This document shows, one piece after another, positions 1 through 32,276 of a stretch of DNA of 32,276 nt (position 1 is the stretch's first letter; each line of letters begins with the position of its first letter). The notes beneath the pieces are model-generated. The model was given only the letters and a program-made list of their open reading frames with translations, was not told where the DNA came from and ran no database searches. The DNA comes from Microcystis elabens FACHB-917 (GTDB lineage Bacteria; Cyanobacteriota; Cyanobacteriia; PCC-6307; Cyanobiaceae): assembly GCF_014698445.1 (NCBI RefSeq), contig NZ_JACJSZ010000036.1, positions 1-32,276 of the forward strand. Direction: 5' to 3'. Position numbers and translations under genes: made by a program.

Positions 1-102
1 CAAGCGGTCTCTGCCTGTGATGCAAGCGGGAATCAAGCTGCCGTCAAGGGTTCAGCAGGGCCAATGTTCGATCCGAACCGTCACACCCCCTGAACGGGTA
101 TG
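1..102 (-). mobile_element. End of a MITE-like element, cut by the window edge
   Basis: Positions 86-101 read CCCCCTGAACGGGTAT, nearly the same as the 16-bp right terminal repeat of the MITE at 27931-27946 (CCCCCTGAACGGATAC). On the reverse strand the similarity goes on past the repeat into a GTGACG stretch that is also present at the left end of the MITE copy at 26635. The piece therefore looks like the left end of a related element in reverse orientation, inserted in the transposase gene that follows. The rest lies outside the window, so its length and any gene it carries are unknown. Confidence 0.5.
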
Positions 103-10505: not shown

Positions 10506-12593
10506 TCAGGGCGCCAGCCGCGCCCGGTGCAGCCGGCTCCTCCCGTACCACTCGGCGAATTCAGGCACCCACTGCTGCAGGTGGGGCCACATCAGGTCGC
10601 AGAGTTCGCGGATCTCCTGCTGGGCATCGAGCTTGGCCCGCAGGTCGAGGAAGTGCAGGAAGGCCCGCAGGGTGAAGCTGACCACGAAGTGCTGGCGGTA
10701 GTCGAAGGGCAGGATGCCGCGGGCGTGCTCCTCGGCGTAGCCGGCATCGAGCAGGTCGCGGTAACGCTCCGCCGCCGCCCGGCAGAGCTCCAGATCGATG
10801 GCCCGCTGGCCCTCGTCGTAGAGGTACTTCTTGCCCTGGCGGTCGCTGTAGTTGCCCACCGGCCGCAGGTAGAAGACCTCCTCCAGCTCCAGCTCCCCGT
10901 TGGCGGCCCGGCGGATGCGGTCGCCGGTGTAGCGCATCGAGTTGTGCACCACCAGGCCGTTGGCCACGAAGTTGTGCCACGGCTCCTGCACTTCCAGGTC
11001 GTAGGTCATCTGCGTGCCGAGGAATTCCACGTTCACCACCGTGAGGGGATGGGCCATCAGCCTGCGGCCCTGGGGGCGAGGCTTTTCCGGCCAGCCGGCG
11101 ATGGTCTGACGCGGGACGAAGGCGGCGGCGAACTCGGCCTCCAGATGGTGGTTGTGAAGCAAGACGTGAAGGGGCTGGCAGAGGGTCACGAGATTCTCGA
11201 TCTCGTAGCCCAGACCTGGATCCGCATAGACGGGCACCAGGTGATGGGCTTGCAGTTGCAGCTCGCTTCCTCGCCGGCCACAGCGCTGGCAGGTGTGATC
11301 GAAACGCTGATGCACCTGGGGGGCGACCGGCCTGGTCCAGGCGCCGATCAACACGCGCTCCGATGATGCACCCCCCTTCCAGAAGTGTGACGATGCGCCT
11401 CGACGGGTGATCCGTCGGCCATGGGCACGCCGCGCTTCGCGGGACGCTTCCGACAGCTGCAGGCGATAACCACCTCGCCCATTGTTCCAGGGCCGCATGC
11501 CCTTCTGGAACAATGGGCGTTGATTGAGGGTCAGTCCGAAGTGATGGACCCACTTCTTGATGGCTTCGACGGAGCAGCCCGCGAGTTCAGCCATCTCCTT
11601 GGCAGAAAGCCCGTCCTCCAGTCGTTGCTGCAGCCATGGCTGCTGGCGATGGAGAGCTGAAGGGTTGAGGTTCCAGGGTTTGTGACCAGGCGAAAAGCGC
11701 CTGTTGCGCTCCACCAGCTGGATCTGATGCCGACGGGCCCAGTCCCGGATCGTGGTGGTCGAACAGCCAGCACGCTCCGCCATCTCGTCTGGGGTCGCCC
11801 CGGTCTCGACCTGTTGCTGCAGCCAGTCCCTGTCCCGGTAGGCCCCGCTGCCCACCGCCACGTTCCCGTTGGCCAGCACCTGAGCCGTGCGTCGGAAGCT
11901 GCGGACGGTGCCATCCCTGCCCACCTTCAGGGACAGGGCCTCCCCCATGGTCTGCCAGCCATCCGGCGTGAGCAGGCGATGGTTGGCGGTGCAATCAAGA
12001 GTGCGGCCGTCCTCCATCGTCAGCCGATAGACCGGTTGCAGTCCACTGCAAATCACATCCTTGAGATGGCTCGTCTCGAAGACGTTCGTGTCTTCGTTCA
12101 GCACCCGCAGTCGCATCCCCTGCAGCCGCCTGCGGCAATCGCGCCGGTAGGTCCCGGGCCCTTCACCCTGACGGCCACGGATCTGCCGGTGTCGGCGCGT
12201 CCGCTCTCCGTTCGTCCAGAGATCGTGCAGTTCAGCGATCCGGATCTTGCGCAGACCCCCTCCTGCCTGCACGAAGGTGACCTCGGTGTCCCCGGCCAGA
12301 CATTGCACATCGAAGCTCACCCCTACCCGGTGGGTGCGGGCCTGCTGCATCACCGAATGGGGGAACCAGCCCACGTTGAGCACGATCTGGGCGTGCTCCA
12401 GGGGTCCGTAGTGGCCGCGCTCGCCGGCCAGCAGCCGCTTGACGCAGATCTCCCCGGCCTTGCGCTCGTCGGGCCAGCCGTCGCGGTCGGCGGCCACGAA
12501 GCCCTCGCTGTAGTCCTGGTGCATCCCGGCGTAGACGCACAGCTGCGGGTTAGGTGTGGCGGCGATCAGCTCGACCCGGAAACGGGGATCCAT
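10506..12593 (-). CDS. thyX: FAD-dependent thymidylate synthase ThyX, intein-containing
   Basis: ThyX methylates dUMP to dTMP using methylene-tetrahydrofolate and FAD. The spliced protein would be 241 residues, normal for the family. N-extein residues 1-97 end in QQARTHRVGVSFDVQ and the 144-residue C-extein begins SMRYTGDRIRR. Together they form the ThyX signature, here THRVGVSFDVQS in place of the usual RHR-x7-S. The intein sits between Gln97 and that conserved Ser, so the Ser is both the splicing +1 nucleophile and part of the active-site motif. ATG 12593 gives the normal N-terminus. The gene lies 52 bp downstream of txlA on the same strand. Activity depends on splicing; the whole 695-residue frame is open. 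Confidence 0.92.
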   Translation of the reverse strand: MDPRFRVELIAATPNPQLCVYAGMHQDYSEGFVAADRDGWPDERKAGEICVKRLLAGERGHYGPLEHAQIVLNVGWFPHSVMQQARTHRVGVSFDVQCLAGDTEVTFVQAGGGLRKIRIAELHDLWTNGERTRRHRQIRGRQGEGPGTYRRDCRRRLQGMRLRVLNEDTNVFETSHLKDVICSGLQPVYRLTMEDGRTLDCTANHRLLTPDGWQTMGEALSLKVGRDGTVRSFRRTAQVLANGNVAVGSGAYRDRDWLQQQVETGATPDEMAERAGCSTTTIRDWARRHQIQLVERNRRFSPGHKPWNLNPSALHRQQPWLQQRLEDGLSAKEMAELAGCSVEAIKKWVHHFGLTLNQRPLFQKGMRPWNNGRGGYRLQLSEASREARRAHGRRITRRGASSHFWKGGASSERVLIGAWTRPVAPQVHQRFDHTCQRCGRRGSELQLQAHHLVPVYADPGLGYEIENLVTLCQPLHVLLHNHHLEAEFAAAFVPRQTIAGWPEKPRPQGRRLMAHPLTVVNVEFLGTQMTYDLEVQEPWHNFVANGLVVHNSMRYTGDRIRRAANGELELEEVFYLRPVGNYSDRQGKKYLYDEGQRAIDLELCRAAAERYRDLLDAGYAEEHARGILPFDYRQHFVVSFTLRAFLHFLDLRAKLDAQQEIRELCDLMWPHLQQWVPEFAEWYGRSRLHRARLAP
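10941..12302 (-). other. Intein with HNH homing endonuclease in ThyX
   Basis: This is a 454-residue in-frame insertion. Splicing blocks are intact: Cys1 in CLAGDTEV, TANH at 105-108 (block B), and a C-terminal block ending VVHN with the His-Asn pair followed by extein Ser. Between them lie two similar modules, 159-213 and 222-276, each a helix-turn-helix (TPDEMAERAGCSTTTIRDW and SAKEMAELAGCSVEAIKKW) followed by an F-x2-G-x2-PWN motif. Next comes an HNH nuclease (HFWKGG at 306-311, CQRC at 338-341, HH at 352-353, Asn370, His379/His383). The second zinc pair is incomplete: CQPLH instead of CxxCH. The nuclease presumably cuts intein-free thyX alleles. Confidence 0.92.
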
Positions 12594-12645
12594 GGGCGGG
12601 GGTGCGGGGGAGTGGAGCGAGGCGACCGGCGAGGGTGGGGCCGGC

Positions 12646-13233
12646 TCAGCCGTGGCTGCGGGGGCCGGCCTGGGGGGCGGGCAAAGCGCCCGCCGCTGCA
12701 GGGGCGCCCTGGGCGGCGGCCGTTTCCTCGAGGGGGCTGACGGCCCCCACGCCCGCCAGCTGGGGCAGGGGCGTCCCGTCGGCCAGGGCGGCGGTGAGGG
12801 CCTCGAGTTCGGGGCCGCTGCGGGCGCCGATCGAGCGGCCCACGGAGCCGCCGGCGGCATCGAAGAACTCCAGCTGGGGGATGCCGTTGACGTCGTAGCG
12901 CTCCAGCTCCGGCTGCCAGCGGGGATTGTCGACATTGAGCAGCACCACATCCATCCGTCCCCGCTGCTGGCGCTCGATCCGCTCCATCGCCGGCGCCATG
13001 GTCCGGCAGGCCTCGCACCAGTCGGCGTAGAACTCCACCAGGGTGGGCCGCCCGTCGGCGAGGGCCACCGAGAACTCCGGCGACTGGCGGGCCAGGCGCT
13101 CCAGGGGCGCCTCCGGATGCAGGCCCCCCCGCAGCCACACCATCAGCACCACCAGCACGGCCGCCACGGCCGCCAGAACCATGCGCTCGCTGCGGCCGAG
13201 GGTGGTGGGGGGGGGACTGCCCGACGGGGCCAT
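12646..13233 (-). CDS. txlA: Membrane-anchored thioredoxin-like protein (TxlA/HCF164 type)
   Basis: This 195-residue protein has one N-terminal membrane helix (about residues 19-33) and a thioredoxin fold. The redox site WCEAC is at 72-76, followed by the cis-proline loop NGIPQLEFFD. The family faces the thylakoid lumen or periplasm and passes reductant to photosynthetic assembly, for example cytochrome b6f maturation. The length and the Pro/Ala-rich tail fit cyanobacterial TxlA. ATG 13233 puts a short Pro/Ser-rich leader before the helix. It is divergent from the ferredoxin gene at 13369 across about 135 bp that must hold both promoters, and it is followed by thyX on the same strand. Confidence 0.88.
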   Translation of the reverse strand: MAPSGSPPPTTLGRSERMVLAAVAAVLVVLMVWLRGGLHPEAPLERLARQSPEFSVALADGRPTLVEFYADWCEACRTMAPAMERIERQQRGRMDVVLLNVDNPRWQPELERYDVNGIPQLEFFDAAGGSVGRSIGARSGPELEALTAALADGTPLPQLAGVGAVSPLEETAAAQGAPAAAGALPAPQAGPRSHG

Positions 13234-24677: not shown

Positions 24678-25466
24678 TCAACGACCGCCGGGTGATGCGT
24701 TTGGGGGCCCAGCACCTCCCAGCAAGAATTGGTCGTAGAAACGGCACTTCATTGCACAGGCCTGGTCCACCTGATGCATGGCACAGGCCAAGGCCGCTTC
24801 GTCGGGGATCAGCTTGCTGATCTGCCGCGCCAACTCTTCGGCGTGGGTGAGGCCGCCAAGCAGGGTATCAGCGCCGATATCAGATTGCCGTCTGTCATGG
24901 ATCATGTGGTAGTAAAAGAATTCAGACTTGCTGCGCTCTGGAGTCTGAGCCTGGGACAGGCGCTCCGAGAGGCGAGGCCAAAGACAGGTGTACTCGACTG
25001 ACACCAGCACTTCCGCCCAGAAGCGGAGATAGCAGATCAGTGCTAATTCGTGAAGGGGCTGAGTCAGACAGCGCATGAGTTGCTCTTGGCTTTCATGGCG
25101 GACGGAACGTGTGATGCTGGATTCCGCAGTGGTCAGGATCTGTTCGCGAGAGGCGCCGAGAGAGAGGAGATCCTGAAACAGCAACTCGCGATGGGAGGGA
25201 AGGGCGACTCCCTTTGAACTGCGCGGAAACTCCTCATGCAGGATCAGGCGCACAGCGGCTTTGATGGATTCATCTTCGAGAGCATCGATCACGAACTCAT
25301 AGGCGTTCACGATCGACAGTGAAAGATGGCGTCTCTGGATGAGAACCGCCAGTAGCTCATCCCAGGCAAGGGCGTCACAATGGCACAGCAGCGGATGGGC
25401 CTGGAATTGGCCGATCCGGAGGGATTCGTGGCTGTTGAGTCGGTCGATCACGTTGCTAACTGGCAA
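24678..25466 (-). CDS. Heme-oxygenase-like diiron-type protein (DUF3865/CADD-like)
   Basis: This 262-residue helical protein has motifs of the heme-oxygenase-like metal oxidase fold: LHEEF (His77, Glu78, Glu79), PSHREL (His92), a helix with Glu152 and Glu158, and FYYHMIHDRRQSD with His187-x3-Asp191. In CADD-type oxidases a third ligand, His, stands three residues after the Asp; here that residue is Gln194, so the metal site may be altered. The motif GLTHAEEL (His208) follows. The overall pattern resembles the cyanobacterial DUF3865 family, whose substrate is unknown to me. It overlaps the upstream gene by 11 bp and is probably co-translated with it. Confidence 0.6.
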   Translation of the reverse strand: MPVSNVIDRLNSHESLRIGQFQAHPLLCHCDALAWDELLAVLIQRRHLSLSIVNAYEFVIDALEDESIKAAVRLILHEEFPRSSKGVALPSHRELLFQDLLSLGASREQILTTAESSITRSVRHESQEQLMRCLTQPLHELALICYLRFWAEVLVSVEYTCLWPRLSERLSQAQTPERSKSEFFYYHMIHDRRQSDIGADTLLGGLTHAEELARQISKLIPDEAALACAMHQVDQACAMKCRFYDQFLLGGAGPPNASPGGR

Positions 25467-26349
25467 AGAGAATCTTCAGGTCGTTCCGCCAGTTCTGGTC
25501 GGGCACTGGTGTGAACGGGCGAGCGACATTCCACATCAGCTCATAGTCGTTGAGTAATGTACCAGTGATCAAGGGATTGGCGGCCTGCAGATCTAGCTCC
25601 AGTTGAAAGGTGTGGATCGCCAGGGATCCATGCAGGAATGGGGCGGCGATCATGGTGGCACCGGCTCGGTAGATCGCCAGGGAAGGCAAGGTGTCATAAA
25701 GTCTGATTTCGAGCGGGCAGCTCGGCTGACTGCAGCGGATGGCCTGCTCCAGTGTTTCCAGGTTGGCGATCACACGGCTCTGGATGTCGATCACATGGTC
25801 CTGCAGCGAGAAGGTGTAGCGTTTCAGCACCTCTTCGCGCAATCGGGCGGCCTGGGAGTAGGGCCAGGCCAGCAGGACGCGCACAGCCACATCCTGTGCG
25901 AGGCAGCGAATGAGCTGGGGTCGGTAGTGGTCAAGATTGGGTGCAAAGGTCTGCAGGATATCAACCTTCTTTATCTCGCGTTGCTCGCATTGAGTCACCA
26001 CCTCCAAGGCGTGAGCAAAGGCTTCGGTGGGGAAGCTTTCATGGATTCTTGTCAGCCCGATGCCGTTGAAACCATGGTCAATCTGCTGGTACTGGCTGAA
26101 CAGAAAGCGATGCAGCTGTGGCAACTTGTAGCCGCGACCCTGGATCCTGAACTTCCGGTAGATGGTGCGAAGTCTCTGGGTTAAAGCCTCTTCCTCGATG
26201 GGGCCGTGAATGCTCTGGTAGGTCTCAAGCAGCTGATGCTTGGTCTGCCCCTGTTCCTCCTGAAGGCACAGAATCACTGCCATCTCGTGGGGTGTGAGTG
26301 CGTAATGCTGCTGTTGCCCGATGGCCTGCAGGAAGGATGTCCAGCTCAT
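25456..26349 (-). CDS. DUF5919-like protein with N-terminal winged helix
   Basis: This is a 297-residue protein. Residues 15-85 look like a winged-helix domain (LTPHEMAVILCLQEEQG, then a second helix and the RTIYRKF stretch). Residues 125-250 resemble DUF5919 modules: KKVDILQTFAPNLDHYRPQL, VAVRVLLAWPYS, and a C-terminal IRLYDTLPSLAIYRAG followed by APFLHGS. DUF5919 is found in regulatory and conflict-type proteins and is related in fold to PLD-like domains; no HKD motif is visible here. It is the first gene of a two-gene operon with the diiron-type protein, suggesting a sensor or regulator plus an enzyme. The assignment comes from memory of the motif. Confidence 0.5.
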   Translation of the reverse strand: MSWTSFLQAIGQQQHYALTPHEMAVILCLQEEQGQTKHQLLETYQSIHGPIEEEALTQRLRTIYRKFRIQGRGYKLPQLHRFLFSQYQQIDHGFNGIGLTRIHESFPTEAFAHALEVVTQCEQREIKKVDILQTFAPNLDHYRPQLIRCLAQDVAVRVLLAWPYSQAARLREEVLKRYTFSLQDHVIDIQSRVIANLETLEQAIRCSQPSCPLEIRLYDTLPSLAIYRAGATMIAAPFLHGSLAIHTFQLELDLQAANPLITGTLLNDYELMWNVARPFTPVPDQNWRNDLKILFAS

Positions 26350-26421
26350 GACCCGTACGTTCGATGGTCAGTGAATGGGGGTGCGTTCATCAATCCATGG
26401 TATCGCCTTGTTGTGGAAGGT

Positions 26422-26601
26422 GGAGTTGCTTCCACTTGCCTCCATCTGGTTCCACCTGTCCATGATTGACATCACTTGCGATCGTCTGGGAATGTCAGTT
26501 GGTCGCCTTTCCTATGGCAACCATGCTCGACTCACAGCGAGATCTTTATCGCCGCACTCAGGCCGATGAGCTGGATGACCCCAGCGACGAGATAGGTTTT
26601 G
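26422..26601 (+). repeat. Duplicated block, copy A (partner 29204-29382)
   Basis: This block and 29204-29382 are clearly homologous, with mostly single-base differences. Both cover about 90 bp upstream of a start codon plus the first 88 bases of coding sequence (MATMLDSQRDLYRR). A one-base indel upstream of the ATG puts the shared upstream DNA in different frames, so that DNA is not coding. It may hold a common promoter. Confidence 0.85.
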
Positions 26602-26626
26602 ATCGCCAGTTTTTCGGAGCAACGCT

Positions 26627-26634
26627 GTTGGAAC
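26627..26634. repeat. Left target-site duplication GTTGGAAC
   Basis: This 8-bp sequence directly abuts the left end of the composite element and is repeated exactly at 27947-27954 directly after its right end. Eight bases is the duplication length of IS1595-family elements. The paralogous coding sequence aligns across the junction when one copy and the element are removed. Confidence 0.9.
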
Positions 26635-26840
26635 GTATCCGTTCAGGTGGCGTGACGAGCCTCAAGATCCCAGTTACCTTGATCGGTCTCTGGATTTTCA
26701 AGATGATTGCACTTCAACCAAGAAGGAAAGGGGCTCCGGTGGCTGCGAGTGGGCAATTTCTGCCTTCTAGGAGCCGTCTGGACGCTACGGGTAGCGATCG
26801 CAGCCTCGTCAAACGCTATATCCGCCCTCTGAGCTGATAC
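26635..26840 (+). mobile_element. MITE copy 1 (206 bp)
   Basis: Left end GTATCCGTTCAGGTGG; the right end CCCTCTGAGCTGATAC is a decayed version of the same terminal repeat. The interior matches copy 2 in the same orientation over nearly its full length, for example around TCTGGATTTTCAAGATGATT and the GACGCTACGGGTAG stretch. It carries no gene. Confidence 0.85.
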
Positions 26841-26910
26841 GGCGTTTTAAATCACATCCATCAAGGCTTCAGATCAGTAGAATCTATCACGAGCGACTAG
26901 GTTTTTTCCG

Positions 26911-27639
26911 ATGACACTACGTTTCCTGAAATCTGCTTTCTTGTGTGCTTTCGCAGGCGCAGCCAGTCTTATGCCAATACAGGCACTTGCTCTGGACTTT
27001 CGCTTCTTTTTCAGTCCAAGCGGTTTCTTTCAGATAGTTCCGAATGGGGATGGCACATTTGCCGAGAATCCGGACGGGTCATTTGTTATTGACTATGAAG
27101 TTGAGGGCTTGATCACTGGTCTCAATGACAATCAGGAAAACCAGCTTCCTGTTCAACTTGAGATCACCAAGTCAAGAGACGATCTTCTGTCCCTAGGCAT
27201 CTACTCCTTTTTGGAAGGGTCAGGGTTTTCCGTATCTGATGGCCAGATCGAAAAGGCAAGCTGGACGGGTTTGTTGGAGTCACAGGAGCACTATCGCCGC
27301 CTTGGCTTTTGGGAGAACATTTGGGGGGGGGACATCTGGGCCGCCTTGGACAACGATCCCCCTGCGCTTCCGAAGCCCCCATTGCTCCCTCGAGAACCGA
27401 TTTGGATCGATGGGGTGGGCTACATCTGGCCCATCTGCGCTTGTACCACCATAGTCTTTCCTGATCTGACTCCTGGCTCCATGGCACGCTTTGAGCCTGT
27501 GGCTGCCGGTTCTCCAAGCTTCAGCCCACCTGCCGTTAGCCCCACCCCTGGCCCCCTGCCGATTTTCGGCGTGGCTGCGACCTACGGTTTCAGCCGTCGC
27601 TTGAGACGCCGCATTCGCGAGACCAGACCCACGGCCTGA
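26911..27639 (+). CDS. Secreted protein with PEP-CTERM-like sorting tail
   Basis: This 242-residue protein has an N-terminal signal peptide (basic MTLRFLK, then a hydrophobic core to about residue 28, with cleavage likely after ALA). The body is acidic and has no domain I recognise. The C-terminus (PGPLPIFG, a short hydrophobic run ATYGFS, then RRLRRRIRE) is the cyanobacterial form of an exosortase sorting signal: proline motif, membrane segment, arginine cluster. Such proteins are exported, cleaved and attached at the cell surface. The codon for Trp-Gly-Gly near 27323-27331 contains nine G in a row, a possible slippage site. The gene is the only cargo between the two MITE copies. Confidence 0.75.
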   Translation: MTLRFLKSAFLCAFAGAASLMPIQALALDFRFFFSPSGFFQIVPNGDGTFAENPDGSFVIDYEVEGLITGLNDNQENQLPVQLEITKSRDDLLSLGIYSFLEGSGFSVSDGQIEKASWTGLLESQEHYRRLGFWENIWGGDIWAALDNDPPALPKPPLLPREPIWIDGVGYIWPICACTTIVFPDLTPGSMARFEPVAAGSPSFSPPAVSPTPGPLPIFGVAATYGFSRRLRRRIRETRPTA

Positions 27640-27745
27640 GACTCTGCACGGACGGTGCTAAGAGCCCATCAGGACGAGTGCCCGCTTGGCCCGTGGAAAC
27701 ATGCAGGCCTAGCCGAGTACGTCATGTATTACCACCATAGATATG

Positions 27746-27946
27746 GTATCCGTTCAGGGGGCGGGACGAGCACCAAGATCCCAGTCGCCGCAATGGGTCT
27801 CTGGATTTTCAAGATGATTGCACTTCATCCAAGAAGGGGCTCCTGTGGCTATGAGTGGGCAACTTCAGCCTTCCGGGGGCCGTCGGGACGCTACGGGTAG
27901 GGTCCGCAGCCTCTTCAAACGCCATATCCACCCCCTGAACGGATAC
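27746..27946 (+). mobile_element. MITE copy 2 (201 bp) with perfect 16-bp terminal repeats
   Basis: The ends GTATCCGTTCAGGGGG (27746-27761) and CCCCCTGAACGGATAC (27931-27946) are exact reverse complements. The interior resembles copy 1. No coding potential is evident. Confidence 0.9.
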
Positions 27947-27954
27947 GTTGGAAC
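27947..27954. repeat. Right target-site duplication GTTGGAAC
   Basis: It is identical to 26627-26634 on the far side of the composite element. The base sequence after it (GGTGGCCACCGG) continues the interrupted paralogue. Confidence 0.9.
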
Positions 27955-28011
27955 GGTGGCCACCGGACGACCTTTGAATCAGCAACAACTTAGTCGTGAA
28001 GGAGGGTAACC

Positions 28012-28863
28012 ATGATGACCACTGATACCGTGTTCTCTAAATCCGGGTTGCAAGGTCTGACGGTGCGGCGCTTCGCGCCGATCGGAGTGGCGGCGGCTGC
28101 GGTGATACTGAATCCCCTGCGGGTGATCCCAGAGGGCACGGCGTGCGCCAGGCTACGCCTTGGCCAAGTGCAGAATCAACCGGTGCTGCCAGGATTGAAC
28201 TTAGTGATTCCATTCATTGATGACTTGGATTGCATGGATGTAAAGGTTAAGAGTTATCAGCGGCAAGTGGCAGCTTCCACATCCAATATCCAGGATCTGA
28301 ATGCAAAACTTGCTGTTCAGTGGAGAGTTCCCCCCTCCCAGGTGCCGCGGGTGCGCCGTGAATTTGGTTCGCTTGAGGCGCTGGCCACGGGGATCATTGA
28401 TCCGAAAGCGGAGGAGAGCTTCAAAACGGTGAGTTCGACGCGAAGTCTGGATTCGGCCATCGGCAATCGCGCTAAGCTGAAGGCTGATTGGGAGAGCATG
28501 ATCAAGGCTAACTTGCGCCCTTATCCGGTGGAAGTGATTGGGCTTGATGTGGTGAATTTAGCTCCCAGTGAAAAGGTCTCGGAAGCGATTGAGACCAAGC
28601 AGGTTGCCGAGCAGGAGGCTCTGGCGGCCACATACAAAGCCACCGCGAAGAAGAATGAGGCGCTCGGGGTGATTGAGGAGGCGAGAGGCCAAGCGGAGGC
28701 CAACCGACTCAAGGCCGAGAGTTTGCGGGTACCCGGCGCCCGTGAAGTGACGGAACTGGAGAAAATTCGTCTGTGGGCACAAAATGGATCGAAGGTGCCA
28801 ACCACCCTGATCGTCGGAGGAGAAGGGGGCTTTTGGTTGTCCAGAATGCTCGGCATCCGATAA
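28012..28863 (+). CDS. SPFH/Band 7 (prohibitin-like) domain protein
   Basis: This 283-residue protein has a hydrophobic N-terminal anchor (about residues 20-35). An SPFH domain follows (about 40-200) with RVIPEGTACARLRLG, VLPGLNLVIPFID and the VEVIGLDVVNL strand. A Glu/Ala/Lys-rich helix runs from about 200 to 240 (KQVAEQEALAATYKATAKK, EEARGQAEANRLKAES), typical of prohibitin/stomatin proteins that form ring or cage oligomers on membranes. The start is well supported by GGAGG about 8 bp before ATG 28012; a second ATG follows immediately. It lies between two broken pieces of a TIGR04222-type gene, so it may have functioned with that protein. Confidence 0.85.
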   Translation: MMTTDTVFSKSGLQGLTVRRFAPIGVAAAAVILNPLRVIPEGTACARLRLGQVQNQPVLPGLNLVIPFIDDLDCMDVKVKSYQRQVAASTSNIQDLNAKLAVQWRVPPSQVPRVRREFGSLEALATGIIDPKAEESFKTVSSTRSLDSAIGNRAKLKADWESMIKANLRPYPVEVIGLDVVNLAPSEKVSEAIETKQVAEQEALAATYKATAKKNEALGVIEEARGQAEANRLKAESLRVPGAREVTELEKIRLWAQNGSKVPTTLIVGGEGGFWLSRMLGIR

Positions 28864-29032
28864 GGCAAGCCAGCTGTTCTTTGGATGTGCAGCCCGTCCC
28901 TCTGCGGCTGTCCGTCTTCCTTGGCGGCAGCCATCGTTCCCATTGAGCCTGCCACACCACGGGGTCAGATGTATCCCAATGACCGGCTCCGTTGCTTGGC
29001 TGCGCCGATTCGCTGGTTCCCGTTGAGCTGTT

Positions 29033-29119
29033 TGGGGGCGGCTTGACGCTCTCAGGCTTCTGATGCAACGGCGACAACGGCAACAGGCACATCCAGGGTG
29101 TGCCTGTTGCGGTCATTGA
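29033..29119 (+). pseudogene. 3' remnant of a second TIGR04222-type paralogue
   Basis: GGCTTGACGCTCTCAGGCTT at 29040-29059 matches 30608-30627 near the end of the intact gene with one difference. Translation gives GRLDALRLLMQRRQ, comparable to GRLDDLRLLIEQAQ, and ends in a Cys-containing tail (GCACCGH) at TGA 29117-29119. An in-frame stop at 29024-29026 shows the rest is gone. The stretch 28864-29032 between the SPFH gene and this remnant shows no other gene. Confidence 0.55.
29080..29110. terminator. Strong hairpin, possible terminator
   Basis: GCAACAGGCACA and TGTGCCTGTTGC form a perfect 12-bp stem with a 7-base loop, located between the SPFH gene and the next one. There is no T-run after it, so it would be an atypical terminator. 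Part of it may only reflect the remnant coding sequence. Confidence 0.35.
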
Positions 29120-29203
29120 GGTTGTTGCCAAGCCTGGAAGGCAGCACCCATAGCAAACCAGGGTCATTTCACATACCCATTGGATCTCTTTGTGTTGACG
29201 GAT

Positions 29204-29382
29204 GGTGCTGCTTCCACTTCCCTCTATCTGTTTCCATCTGGCCATGATTGACACCACTCGCGATTGTCTGGGAATGTCAGTTGGTAGCCTTCCCATGGCA
29301 ACCATGCTCGACTCACAGCGAGATCTCTATCGCCGCATTCAGGCCTATGAGCTGGATGACCCTAGCCATGAGCTGGGTTTTG
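29204..29382 (+). repeat. Duplicated block, copy B (partner 26422-26601)
   Basis: Homologous to copy A in the upstream DNA and the first 29 codons of the downstream gene. Because the same upstream DNA is kept before both starts, promoter elements are likely within it. I could not settle a -10/-35 pair. Confidence 0.85.
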
Positions 29383-30716
29383 TGCGGCATTTGATGCGGC
29401 TACAGGGCTGGAGTCGCGAGCAGTGTCTACGTACGATTGAGGAATATAGGAAGTTTGTCTTTCTGGCAGCTATTGCTGACCATCAACTCGTGCCTTCCGA
29501 TCCAGTTGACCAGGTCTGGCACTTGCATCTGTTGTATAGCGAGCCCTACTGGGAGGACTTCTGCCCCAATGTTCTGGGCCGCAAGCTCCAGCATCGGCCA
29601 GCGCGGGGGGGCAGGCAGGAACGAGAACTGTTTCTCCGCTTGTACCGCGCCACCATCGACAGCTATCGCCAGTTTTTCGGCGAGCCGCGCCTGGATCTCT
29701 GGCCACCGGCCGATCTGCGTTTCGCCAGCGATCCCCAGATGCAGCGCATCCCCATCGGTCGTCGGCTGTCGGCCCGGATCCGCCTCGCCAGCCCACTCTG
29801 GCGCGGGCCTGGCCTGGTCTTACTCCTGGCTGCACTCAGCCTTCTGGCCGTGTGTGCCGTCGCCCCAACCCCCATGGCCCTGGCCACCAGTTCCACAGGG
29901 TCAGCACCCACAGCAACCGTCGATCCGCCGGCGATGCTTCTCCTTCTCCTCGCGATGGCGGTGGGGCTGGTCATTCGGCGCCTGATCCGCCGGCCGGATT
30001 CGCAGGCCACCATCCCGCTGCTCTCCGCTGAGCAACTTGCCTATCTGGCCCGTGGCGCGACGGGTGCGTTGGATGTGGCCCTCGCCCAACTGGTTGATCG
30101 AGGTGCGTTTCAGCCGAATAGAGACAAGAAGACGTTGAAACTCACATTTTTTGTTTCGCCATGTGTATCACCAATCGAGCAACAGCTGGTTCAGCGAAAC
30201 AAGCAGCTGGCTCAGACATCTTACAACATGCCAACCTATGGGAGCCTTGTTACGCCAGGCGCTTACGACTTTTCGTCGTTGAAGCAACATCTGAGAGAGA
30301 AAGGGCTGATGATCGGTCCGCTTTCTCTGGCGGCTTCGCGTTCCTTCTATTTGCTTTTATTCCCGCTGATTGTTTCCAGCGCGATGATCATGGCTCTTCC
30401 TTGCCCACGCGAGTTTCGCCACGCTTTTGGTTCTGTGTTGGTTGGTCCGTGGACCCTGGCTCTTGTCTTAAGTGCGTTTCTGATCCTTCCAGGCGGCCGC
30501 ACACGCTGGGGTTCGTCTGTGCTGTGGCATTACCAGAAACAAGGCGTCGCCCAAGATCCGATGATGCGCGTCGCTTTGTTGGGCCCCACGGCGCTGACGG
30601 GGGGACGGCTTGACGATCTCAGGCTTTTGATAGAACAGGCTCAACAGGATCTATCAGGCAGTGTTGGTGGAGGCTGTGGAGCTGGTTGTGGAGGTGGATG
30701 TGGTGGCGGTTGCTGA
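29295..30716 (+). CDS. TIGR04222-type membrane protein with Cys/Gly-rich tail
   Basis: This is a 473-residue protein. The N-terminal 140 residues resemble the glycine-rich-domain-protein module (VDQVWHLHLLYSEPYWEDF with its conserved Trp-His-x-His). Four membrane helices follow, in pairs near 175-195, 212-230, 350-370 and 378-398, with a soluble domain between the pairs. The protein ends in GGGCGAGCGGGCGGGC, five Cys in a glycine repeat, as in TIGR04222 membrane proteins. ATG 29295 is chosen because the deleted paralogue shares MATMLDSQ but not the frame upstream of it; ATG 29304 is also possible. The function of the family is unknown to me. A metal-binding or crosslinked tail is inferred. 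Confidence 0.75.
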   Translation: MATMLDSQRDLYRRIQAYELDDPSHELGFVRHLMRLQGWSREQCLRTIEEYRKFVFLAAIADHQLVPSDPVDQVWHLHLLYSEPYWEDFCPNVLGRKLQHRPARGGRQERELFLRLYRATIDSYRQFFGEPRLDLWPPADLRFASDPQMQRIPIGRRLSARIRLASPLWRGPGLVLLLAALSLLAVCAVAPTPMALATSSTGSAPTATVDPPAMLLLLLAMAVGLVIRRLIRRPDSQATIPLLSAEQLAYLARGATGALDVALAQLVDRGAFQPNRDKKTLKLTFFVSPCVSPIEQQLVQRNKQLAQTSYNMPTYGSLVTPGAYDFSSLKQHLREKGLMIGPLSLAASRSFYLLLFPLIVSSAMIMALPCPREFRHAFGSVLVGPWTLALVLSAFLILPGGRTRWGSSVLWHYQKQGVAQDPMMRVALLGPTALTGGRLDDLRLLIEQAQQDLSGSVGGGCGAGCGGGCGGGC

Positions 30717-30784
30717 GGTTGTGTCCAGCCCAGGCCACCAGCATCCCAACAATGTTGATGGCATGATTGGCTTCGGTTCCCGGA

Positions 30785-31160
30785 ACAGAGCTTCCGTTCG
30801 GCAGGGCAAGGCTGGAGGGAAGACCCGCGAGGAATCGATTGGTCGACGCAGCCATCACCTCGGCCTCGCAGCGATTGTTGACCATGCCACGGCAGGGCTT
30901 CTGAAATCCCAACGGCTGCTTGATCAGGCGGAATGGGTGATCACCCTTGGTAAGGATCTGATCGTGTTCAAGCACAAACCTGTGGCTGCTGGCGTGAGGT
31001 CGTGCACGTTGGCGGCGGTGGGTGCCAAGGAATGGATGGGTCCTGAGTCCTTGCCAACTCCCAGTGCAGCTTCGTTCCGACGTAGCACTGGTTGCCATCC
31101 AGGTCTGGGGCATCTCCAGACCTCGCTCCACAGCGTTGTTCACTTGGCTTCGCCGCGCTC
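30785..31160 (-). pseudogene. IS5-family transposase relic
   Basis: Fragments in three reverse frames match IS5-type transposases. DGNQCYVGTKLH is near 31100, GPIHSLAPTAANVHDLTPAA near 31005-31065, and DHPFRLIKQPLGFQKPCRGM with NRCEAEVMAASTNRFLAGL near 30810-30945 (family: EHPFRVIK-x-FGFxK...). Frame changes between the pieces show it is long dead. No terminal repeats were identified. Apart from this relic, 30717-31245 shows no supported gene. Confidence 0.7.
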
Positions 31161-31245
31161 CTTGATGCTGGGGCAGCATAATACCCTCAAAACGGGAACA
31201 ACATGATGATCAAGAACACGAAGTCTCAAGTCTCTCCCTCATTCC

Positions 31246-32196
31246 GTGGAGGCATGTAAAGCAGTGCAGAATCCCGAAATCGTGCTGGAGAACCTGTCGG
31301 AGGATCTCGGGGCGACTCTCCAGTTGGGTTATGCCTGGATCAGTAAGGGATCGTTGGATACGGCACGTACGGTGTTCGATGGATTGACGCGTTTGCCCCT
31401 CGAAAGCGGAGAAGCGCAGCAGGTGGGCCTCGGCCTGATCAGGATGGGTGATGTGCTCATGGAACTGGTGGATTACCCAGGAGCTCTGATTGCCTACCGC
31501 GCTCGCCTTGAGATCAGAAGCAACCTGAGTCAGCGGGATCCGAGTAACACGGAGTGGCAGCGCGAACTCTCATTGGCTCACGATCGAATCGGTGATGTAC
31601 TGATGGCGCAAGGGGATTTCTCCGGTGCACTGTCTGCTTACCGCGCAGGCCTGGAGATTGCTGAATCCCTTGTGCATCTAGATCCGGAGGATACGGAGTG
31701 GCAGCGCGATCTCGCGATCAGTCACAGCAACATCGGAAAGGCCCTGTTGGGTCAGGAGGATAGTTCTGGGGCGCTGGCTGCATATCGCACCGGTCTGGAA
31801 ATCAGAAAAACCCTGGCGCAGCTGGATCCGGAGGATACGGAGTGGCAGCGCGATCTCTCGATCAGCCACGACAGGATCGGCCAGACGCTGCAGGCGCAGG
31901 GGAATTGGTCTGCGGCCCTAGCTTCCTACCGCCAAGGACTGGCCATTGCCGAATCCCTTGTGCGTCTAGATCCGGAGAACACTGAGTGGCAGCGCGATCT
32001 CTCGATCAGCCACGACAGGATCGGCCAGACGCTGCAGGCGCAGGGGAATTGGTCTGCGGCCCTAGCTTCCTATCGCCAAGGACTGGCCATTGCCGAATCC
32101 CTTGTGCGTCTAGATCCGGAGAACACGGAGTGGCAGCGCGATCTCGCGATCAGTCACAACAAGATTGGCGATGCGCTAGGAGCCTGTTGCGCATAG
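31246..32196 (+). CDS. Tetratricopeptide repeat protein
   Basis: This is a protein of about 316 residues. After an N-terminal region (1-65) there are TPR-type units of 48 residues with the pattern NTEWQRDLSISHDRIGQ, then TLQAQGNWSAALASYRQGLA, then IAESLVRLDPE. Such units form helical solenoids for protein binding and are frequent in bacterial signalling and caspase/CHAT-type proteins; no effector domain follows here before the stop (ALGACCA). GTG 31246 is the only start in frame and lacks a ribosome-binding site. A better-looking ATG at 31203 leads in another frame to a stop after 18 codons, so a 5' frameshift is possible. Confidence 0.65.
   Translation: MEACKAVQNPEIVLENLSEDLGATLQLGYAWISKGSLDTARTVFDGLTRLPLESGEAQQVGLGLIRMGDVLMELVDYPGALIAYRARLEIRSNLSQRDPSNTEWQRELSLAHDRIGDVLMAQGDFSGALSAYRAGLEIAESLVHLDPEDTEWQRDLAISHSNIGKALLGQEDSSGALAAYRTGLEIRKTLAQLDPEDTEWQRDLSISHDRIGQTLQAQGNWSAALASYRQGLAIAESLVRLDPENTEWQRDLSISHDRIGQTLQAQGNWSAALASYRQGLAIAESLVRLDPENTEWQRDLAISHNKIGDALGACCA
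31552..32139 (+). repeat. Tandem 144-bp repeats encoding TPR units
   Basis: The EWQRDL codons recur every 144 bp (31552, 31696, 31840, 31984, 32128). The units at 31851-31994 and 31995-32138 differ at only two positions, so that pair is a recent duplication; the older units are more diverged. Confidence 0.9.
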
Positions 32197-32232
32197 ACCA
32201 CCCTGCTCTTCTCCACAGACACCCCTGAATCT

Positions 32233-32265
32233 GCCCAGATCCCTGTGATAGCAATGGATCTGGGC
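32233..32265. terminator. Hairpin downstream of the TPR gene
   Basis: GCCCAGATCC and GGATCTGGGC make a perfect 10-bp stem with a 13-base loop 36 bp after the stop codon. No T-run follows. Its location suits a transcript end, but the type is unproven. Confidence 0.4.
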
Positions 32266-32276
32266 GAGATAATGGG

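Follow-up and report, generated by a model that had tools for sequence, protein, structure and literature searches.

Two MITEs and the gene between them appear to have moved as a unit, without an internal transposase, into a site in the cyanobacterium Microcystis elabens FACHB-917 that is still empty in a relative. The unit was likely carried in one event by an IS66-family transposase acting in trans on its two outer ends, and this one-step movement is the simplest account of the data. The DNA analysed here, referred to as the window, is the whole stretch of 32,276 nucleotides at positions 1 to 32,276 of contig NZ_JACJSZ010000036.1. The genome it comes from is designated G000, its relatives in the genus carry other G numbers, and contigs are given as C numbers.

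Anatomy of the unit

The unit and its surroundings in the window are laid out as follows.

26514-26626, plus strand: left part of the target, the N-terminal piece of an internally shortened paralogue of the gene at 29202-30716; uninterrupted in G024
26627-26634: left target-site duplication GTTGGAAC; a single copy, as GTTGGCAC, in the G024 empty site
26635-26840, plus strand: MITE1, 206 bp; outer end GTATCCGTTCAGG intact, inner end degenerate (GTATCAGCTCAGA)
26841-27745: cargo segment, 905 bp
26911-27639, plus strand: cargo gene, 242 aa; signal-peptide-like start, tail PTPGPLPIFGVAATYGFSRRLRRRIRE, no Pfam or NCBIfam family
27746-27946, plus strand: MITE2, 201 bp; both ends GTATCCGTTCAGGGGG
27947-27954: right target-site duplication GTTGGAAC; the 8-mer occurs once in the G024 empty site
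27955-27977, plus strand: right part of the target, ..RWPPDDL followed by a stop
28012-28863, plus strand: flanking Band_7/SPFH gene, the first part of which stands in the same order in G024
29202-30716, plus strand: gene for a TIGR04222-domain membrane protein, a longer paralogue of the target remnant

The 8-mer GTTGGAAC is found in the window sequence at 26627-26634 and again at 27947-27954, and the unit without these repeats is 1312 bp long. MITE1 and MITE2 are direct repeats of each other, with 83% identity. The 8-mers on their inner sides, GGCGTTTT to the right of MITE1 and TAGATATG to the left of MITE2, differ from each other and from GTTGGAAC, and neither MITE therefore has a duplication of its own. 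By hand arithmetic, assuming equal base frequencies, two flanks would agree exactly over 8 bp by chance with a probability of ∼1.5e-5 for one given flank pair and ∼6e-5 over four flank comparisons. A search of the unit for a transposase was negative, as none of the three ORFs of at least 80 aa in or reaching into the cargo segment, a count that leaves out MITE1's own ORF, had a match in Pfam or NCBIfam. Two MITEs around a cargo, a duplication at the outermost ends only and no transposase inside make this a MITE-bounded composite. A sequence-only reading had given the coordinates, the approximate size and the shared orientation of the MITEs, the outer-only 8-bp repeat and the 1312-bp unit, and all of these were confirmed, the coordinates to the base. 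A promoter scan of 26600-28050 returned zero sites, shuffled sequences averaging 0.7.

The empty site and the target locus

The whole region was searched against a genus set of 42 genomes, in one of the searches with six candidates scored per genome, and each flank was also searched alone, with at most 17 or 18 candidates per genome. Among the 41 genomes besides G000, the right flank had matches in four (G024, G064, G026 in part, and G015 over 27 bp), as did the left flank (G024, G064, G002, and G019 over 27 bp), and the two flanks were found adjoining in G024 and G064. On G024:C50 (locus L036), the sequence aligns to the window without 26635-27954 over 581 bp with no gap, 507 positions being identical (87%), and the 8-mer is present once, as GTTGGCAC. 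This locus is the orthologous empty site. The sequence-only reading had proposed such a search and had claimed that two MITEs and a gene moved together without an internal transposase; the search was positive, and the empty site backs the claim. At the corresponding locus of G064, the aligned blocks lie 108 bp apart against 34 expected from the window, a gap too small to hold the unit or even a single complete MITE, so that G064 also lacks the unit there. In G002, the left flank is followed by a longer gene of the target's family and the right flank is unmatched, which makes this genome uninformative on the insertion. In the 42 genomes searched with the region, the composite was found only once.

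G000 and G024 have one and the same shortened remnant as the target, in which an N-terminal piece continues as ..WPPD.L and a stop. The resemblance of the joined target to the intact paralogue, pointed out earlier, is real, but the target was already an internally shortened remnant, as it is in G024. Since G024 carries the same remnant, the insertion probably interrupted no working gene. The orthologous empty site and the shared decayed target together indicate that the insertion is derived and that its cost to the host was probably small. Over 26514-30716, the order of TIGR04222 remnant, SPFH gene and start of the second TIGR04222-type gene is common to G024, so the duplication and shortening of the first TIGR04222 copy seem older than the insertion.

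These comparisons make it extremely improbable that two MITEs inserted independently around a pre-existing gene, so that the outer repeat would have arisen by chance. Single insertions are known for this MITE family, but the cargo is missing from the orthologous site in both G024 and G064, both MITEs lack a duplication of their own, and the empty-site junction coincides exactly with the outer 8-mer.

The MITE family and its IS66-type ends

The MITE family is rare within the genus. Five single full-length copies were found elsewhere in it, three of them flanked by a perfect 8-bp duplication.

G030:C68: single MITE, duplication GCGAAATG
G063:C59: single MITE, duplication CCCGCTGC
G024:C29: single MITE, duplication CCCGCGAC

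The other two, on G063:C109 and G063:C128, are without a duplication. Two further copies are partial, one on G064:C89 and one on G000:C100. The latter, a third copy in G000 (L068, G000:C100:119618-119749), has lost its left third, and its right flank is unlike the flanks of the composite. With MITE1 as a query for further copies, short matches only were obtained and nothing new. A scan of genomes for the MITE core pattern returned three stretches, two of which (L124 and L125) are the MITEs of G063:C59 and G030:C68, with identical flanks and ends. The third (L126), from a Bacillota MAG, is probably a chance match; MITE ends are absent from it at up to 3 mismatches. The core pattern did not occur in viral contigs, and a DNA search of the region against phages and plasmids gave no match.

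Ends that match GTATCCGTTCAGGGGGCGGGACG of MITE2, for instance GTACCCGTTCAGGGGGCGGGACG, occur in G000 and G063. Over its first 23 bp, the left end of MITE2 agrees at 22 of 23 positions with an IS66-like end of G000:C94 and at 21 of 23 with the element ends of G000:C34 and G000:C50. The same MITE end agrees with IS66-like ends of G063 in 28 of 31 columns; the ends in G063 and on G000:C94 lie near contig ends and are likened to the MITEs by their ends alone. As a control, other 23-mers of the window were compared on both strands, and the best scores were 15 (two 23-mers) and 19 (one), the last being probably an IS66-like end at window positions 89-101. That end, ATACCCGTTCAGG, lies near the contig start, which suggests an assembly break at a repeated IS66 element. 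Past the ends, the MITE interiors show no clear similarity to the stretches inspected.

Ten matches to IS66 transposases are spread over seven contigs of G000, and those on C34 and C50 are enclosed by MITE-like ends. The C34 element measures 1757 bp between its ends and holds one large transposase gene, identified as IS66 by both Pfam and NCBIfam (NF033517, 1e-81 for the protein), and the single large gene fits the single-ORF ISBst12 group. A plainly intact IS66 transposase was absent from the G000 assembly: the C34 gene has a stop near its C-terminus, the C50 gene is broken, and the C75 gene begins at a contig end. Of the complete IS66 elements, those on C34 and C50 were inspected, and neither has matching 8-bp flanks. 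IS66 elements elsewhere duplicate 8 bp according to a table in PMC3281130, and the available text of PMC12898284 gives an 8-bp direct repeat for ISDge4, of the ISBst12 group. As in MITEs derived from IS66 elements, the terminal inverted repeats of the copies described here are those of an IS66 element, and there is an 8-bp duplication (at three of the five single copies and at the composite). Judged from their sequence, we assign the MITEs to the IS66-family lineage, ISBst12-like and single-ORF. An earlier guess at the IS1595 family found no support, the ends matching IS66-family elements of the genome and genus in a comparison made with IS66 ends alone.

With such ends, the unit might be regarded as a once autonomous IS66-type transposon that carried a passenger gene and lost its transposase, the MITE-like ends being its terminal regions. 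The absence of an internal transposase would agree with this, and passenger genes are known from IS66 elements (the tIS66 type, for which ISPa75 with fosZ is an example in the available text of PMC12888890). We consider this origin very unlikely, as both terminal regions are complete MITEs, each with its own inverted ends, the same MITE stands alone with its own duplications in G030, G063 and G024, and all three cargo-segment ORFs of at least 80 aa match no transposase family.

The cargo gene

The cargo segment holds a single larger gene (26911-27639, 242 codons). Judged by eye, the start of its protein resembles that of a secreted protein, and its tail, PTPGPLPIFGVAATYGFSRRLRRRIRE, is what we take to be PEP-CTERM-like. 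The protein matched no model of Pfam, NCBIfam or PADLOC (Pfam and NCBIfam at E 0.1), and no curated profile for a PEP-CTERM sorting domain recognised it. Matches to the tail occur in all 42 genus genomes and, among the matches listed, all but the self-match fall within residues 156-242; a full-length match was seen in G000 only, again among the matches listed for these genomes. The body of the protein (residues 28-195) was found in 1 of 299 genomes of the order, which is G000. The one other match to the body, on C24 of G000, is weak (E 0.007); in BLASTP, this relative is 27% identical to the cargo protein over 214 columns, the tail included. At six candidates scored per genome, no copy of the cargo segment was found in its own genome or in the genus, save for the tail-coding stretch.

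An exosortase is encoded at G000:C2:58876, with cyanoexosortase A as the best model (132 bits, below the cut-off of 150). A tail common to many proteins together with an exosortase in the genome is what an exosortase substrate would show. From its N-terminus and tail, the cargo probably encodes a surface protein. The sequence-only reading had called it a surface-protein gene outright; we retain the label as such a prediction, in which PEP-CTERM-like describes the look of the tail and is no family assignment. The G+C content of the cargo segment (54%) is like that of its immediate neighbourhood (53-59%) and does not point to any special origin; that of the first 25.4 kb of the window is 68%. 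The window thus has a step in G+C, from 68% in 1-25400 to 53-59% in the stretches measured over 25456-32276. Elsewhere in the window, a ThyX-type thymidylate synthase gene with intein-like and HNH endonuclease domains lies at 10506-12950 on the minus strand; it is probably an intein-bearing thyX.

Mode of movement

In the course of events that we consider likely, the gene would have stood between two ISBst12-like MITEs of the IS66 lineage at its donor site. Acting in trans on the outer ends, the left one of MITE1 and the right one of MITE2, an IS66 transposase would have moved the 1312-bp unit in a single event, with duplication of its 8-bp target GTTGGAAC in what was by then a decayed gene remnant. 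The sole degenerate end, the right end of MITE1, is an inner one, which such a transposition does without. No donor site was found at which each MITE stands in a duplication of its own, and the cargo had no plasmid match.

The same structure could have arisen in two steps, by a MITE inserting alone at GTTGGAAC and a circle of a second MITE and the cargo later recombining into it. We regard this as unlikely. The final anatomy would be identical, with MITE, cargo and MITE inside an old duplication, and this route is the subject of speculation for MITESen1 composites in the available text of PMC13367494. A 32-bp identical run, GGTCTCTGGATTTTCAAGATGATTGCACTTCA, in both MITEs marks a possible place for a crossover. 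When MITE1 and MITE2 were compared with the copies of G030 and G063:C59, MITE2 was like these relatives at all eight decided sites within positions 1-50 (two undecided), and the pattern beyond the run was mixed. This amounts to no clean swap, nor does it speak clearly against one, since beyond the 32-bp run the relatives agree with MITE2 at eight sites and with MITE1 at nine, with two undecided. Recombination also requires a single-MITE stage at this site, which was seen in neither of the two relatives with both flanks (G024 and G064). Moreover, the flanks of the incoming MITE are unequal (TAGATATG and GGCGTTTT), so that it would have come without its own duplication, and the MITE copies are just 83% identical. 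Because recombination of such a circle into a MITE already in place gives the same anatomy, the term 'direct evidence' of joint mobilisation, used in the sequence-only reading, was somewhat too strong, although the anatomy it rested on was correct. Also by this route the MITEs would carry the gene, by recombination instead of a transposase.

Discussion

The MITE-bounded unit has counterparts in other bacteria. In TIME-COMPs, among them IMU, two MITEs in direct or inverted orientation surround a cargo; past movement was inferred from duplications at the outermost ends, and movement by a transposase in trans was shown for some (PMC4133298 and PMC13367494, in their available parts). The unit described here shares with them the order of MITE, cargo and MITE and the duplication at the outermost ends. 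TIME-COMPs belong to the Tn3 family and make 5-6-bp duplications, whereas this unit has IS66-type ends and an 8-bp duplication, more diverged bounding copies (83%), a non-resistance cargo and a cyanobacterial host. With its 8-bp duplication and IS66-matching ends, it does not have the makeup of a Tn3-derived TIME, as judged from a comparison with IS66 ends. Integrons and resistance regions bounded by MITEs have been described from Acinetobacter (available parts of PMC10969869, PMC6382973 and PMC3934969). They likewise hold genes between two copies of one MITE, but the MITEs measure 439-502 bp and the cargo is resistance genes.

Two IS66 systems come close in their ends. The terminal inverted repeats of the ISBst12 group (ISDge4, in the available text of PMC12898284), like those of the MITEs, start with GT, have CAG at positions 10-12 (...TCAG) and are bordered by an 8-bp repeat; ISDge4 is an autonomous IS with a single transposase gene, whereas the MITEs keep the ends only. 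In tIS66 (ISPa75 with fosZ, in the available text of PMC12888890), a passenger gene is also moved by IS66-type ends, but it lies within one element that retains its transposase genes, in contrast to two MITEs and no transposase here.

Within the open-access literature, with subscription journals mostly outside its scope, we found no MITE composite that is IS66-type or cyanobacterial. None is described in the available parts of PMC10969869, PMC13367494, PMC3281130, PMC12898284, PMC4133298, PMC12888890, PMC3189936, PMC2246112, PMC9208149 and PMC6382973. MITE composites with a cargo gene had been called seldom documented, which is true in relative terms only, given that TIME-COMPs, IMU and the Acinetobacter composites are already published. 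Since comparable arrangements are known from other bacteria, the unit is a clean new example and no new principle.

It is a natural instance of an enzyme-less pair of elements moving an ordinary, non-resistance gene, and an unusually clean one, with the orthologous site empty in a relative. Through it, MITE-bounded composites, well studied in their Tn3-type examples, come to include IS66-type ends and a cyanobacterial host. A wider role, in which pairs of IS66/ISBst12-type MITEs would be a gene-shuttling device of picocyanobacteria-like cyanobacteria for orphan sorted surface-protein genes and speed their turnover between relatives, is a doubtful generalisation from the one case seen. The unit itself points to one way in which a strain may acquire surface-protein genes that are specific to it.
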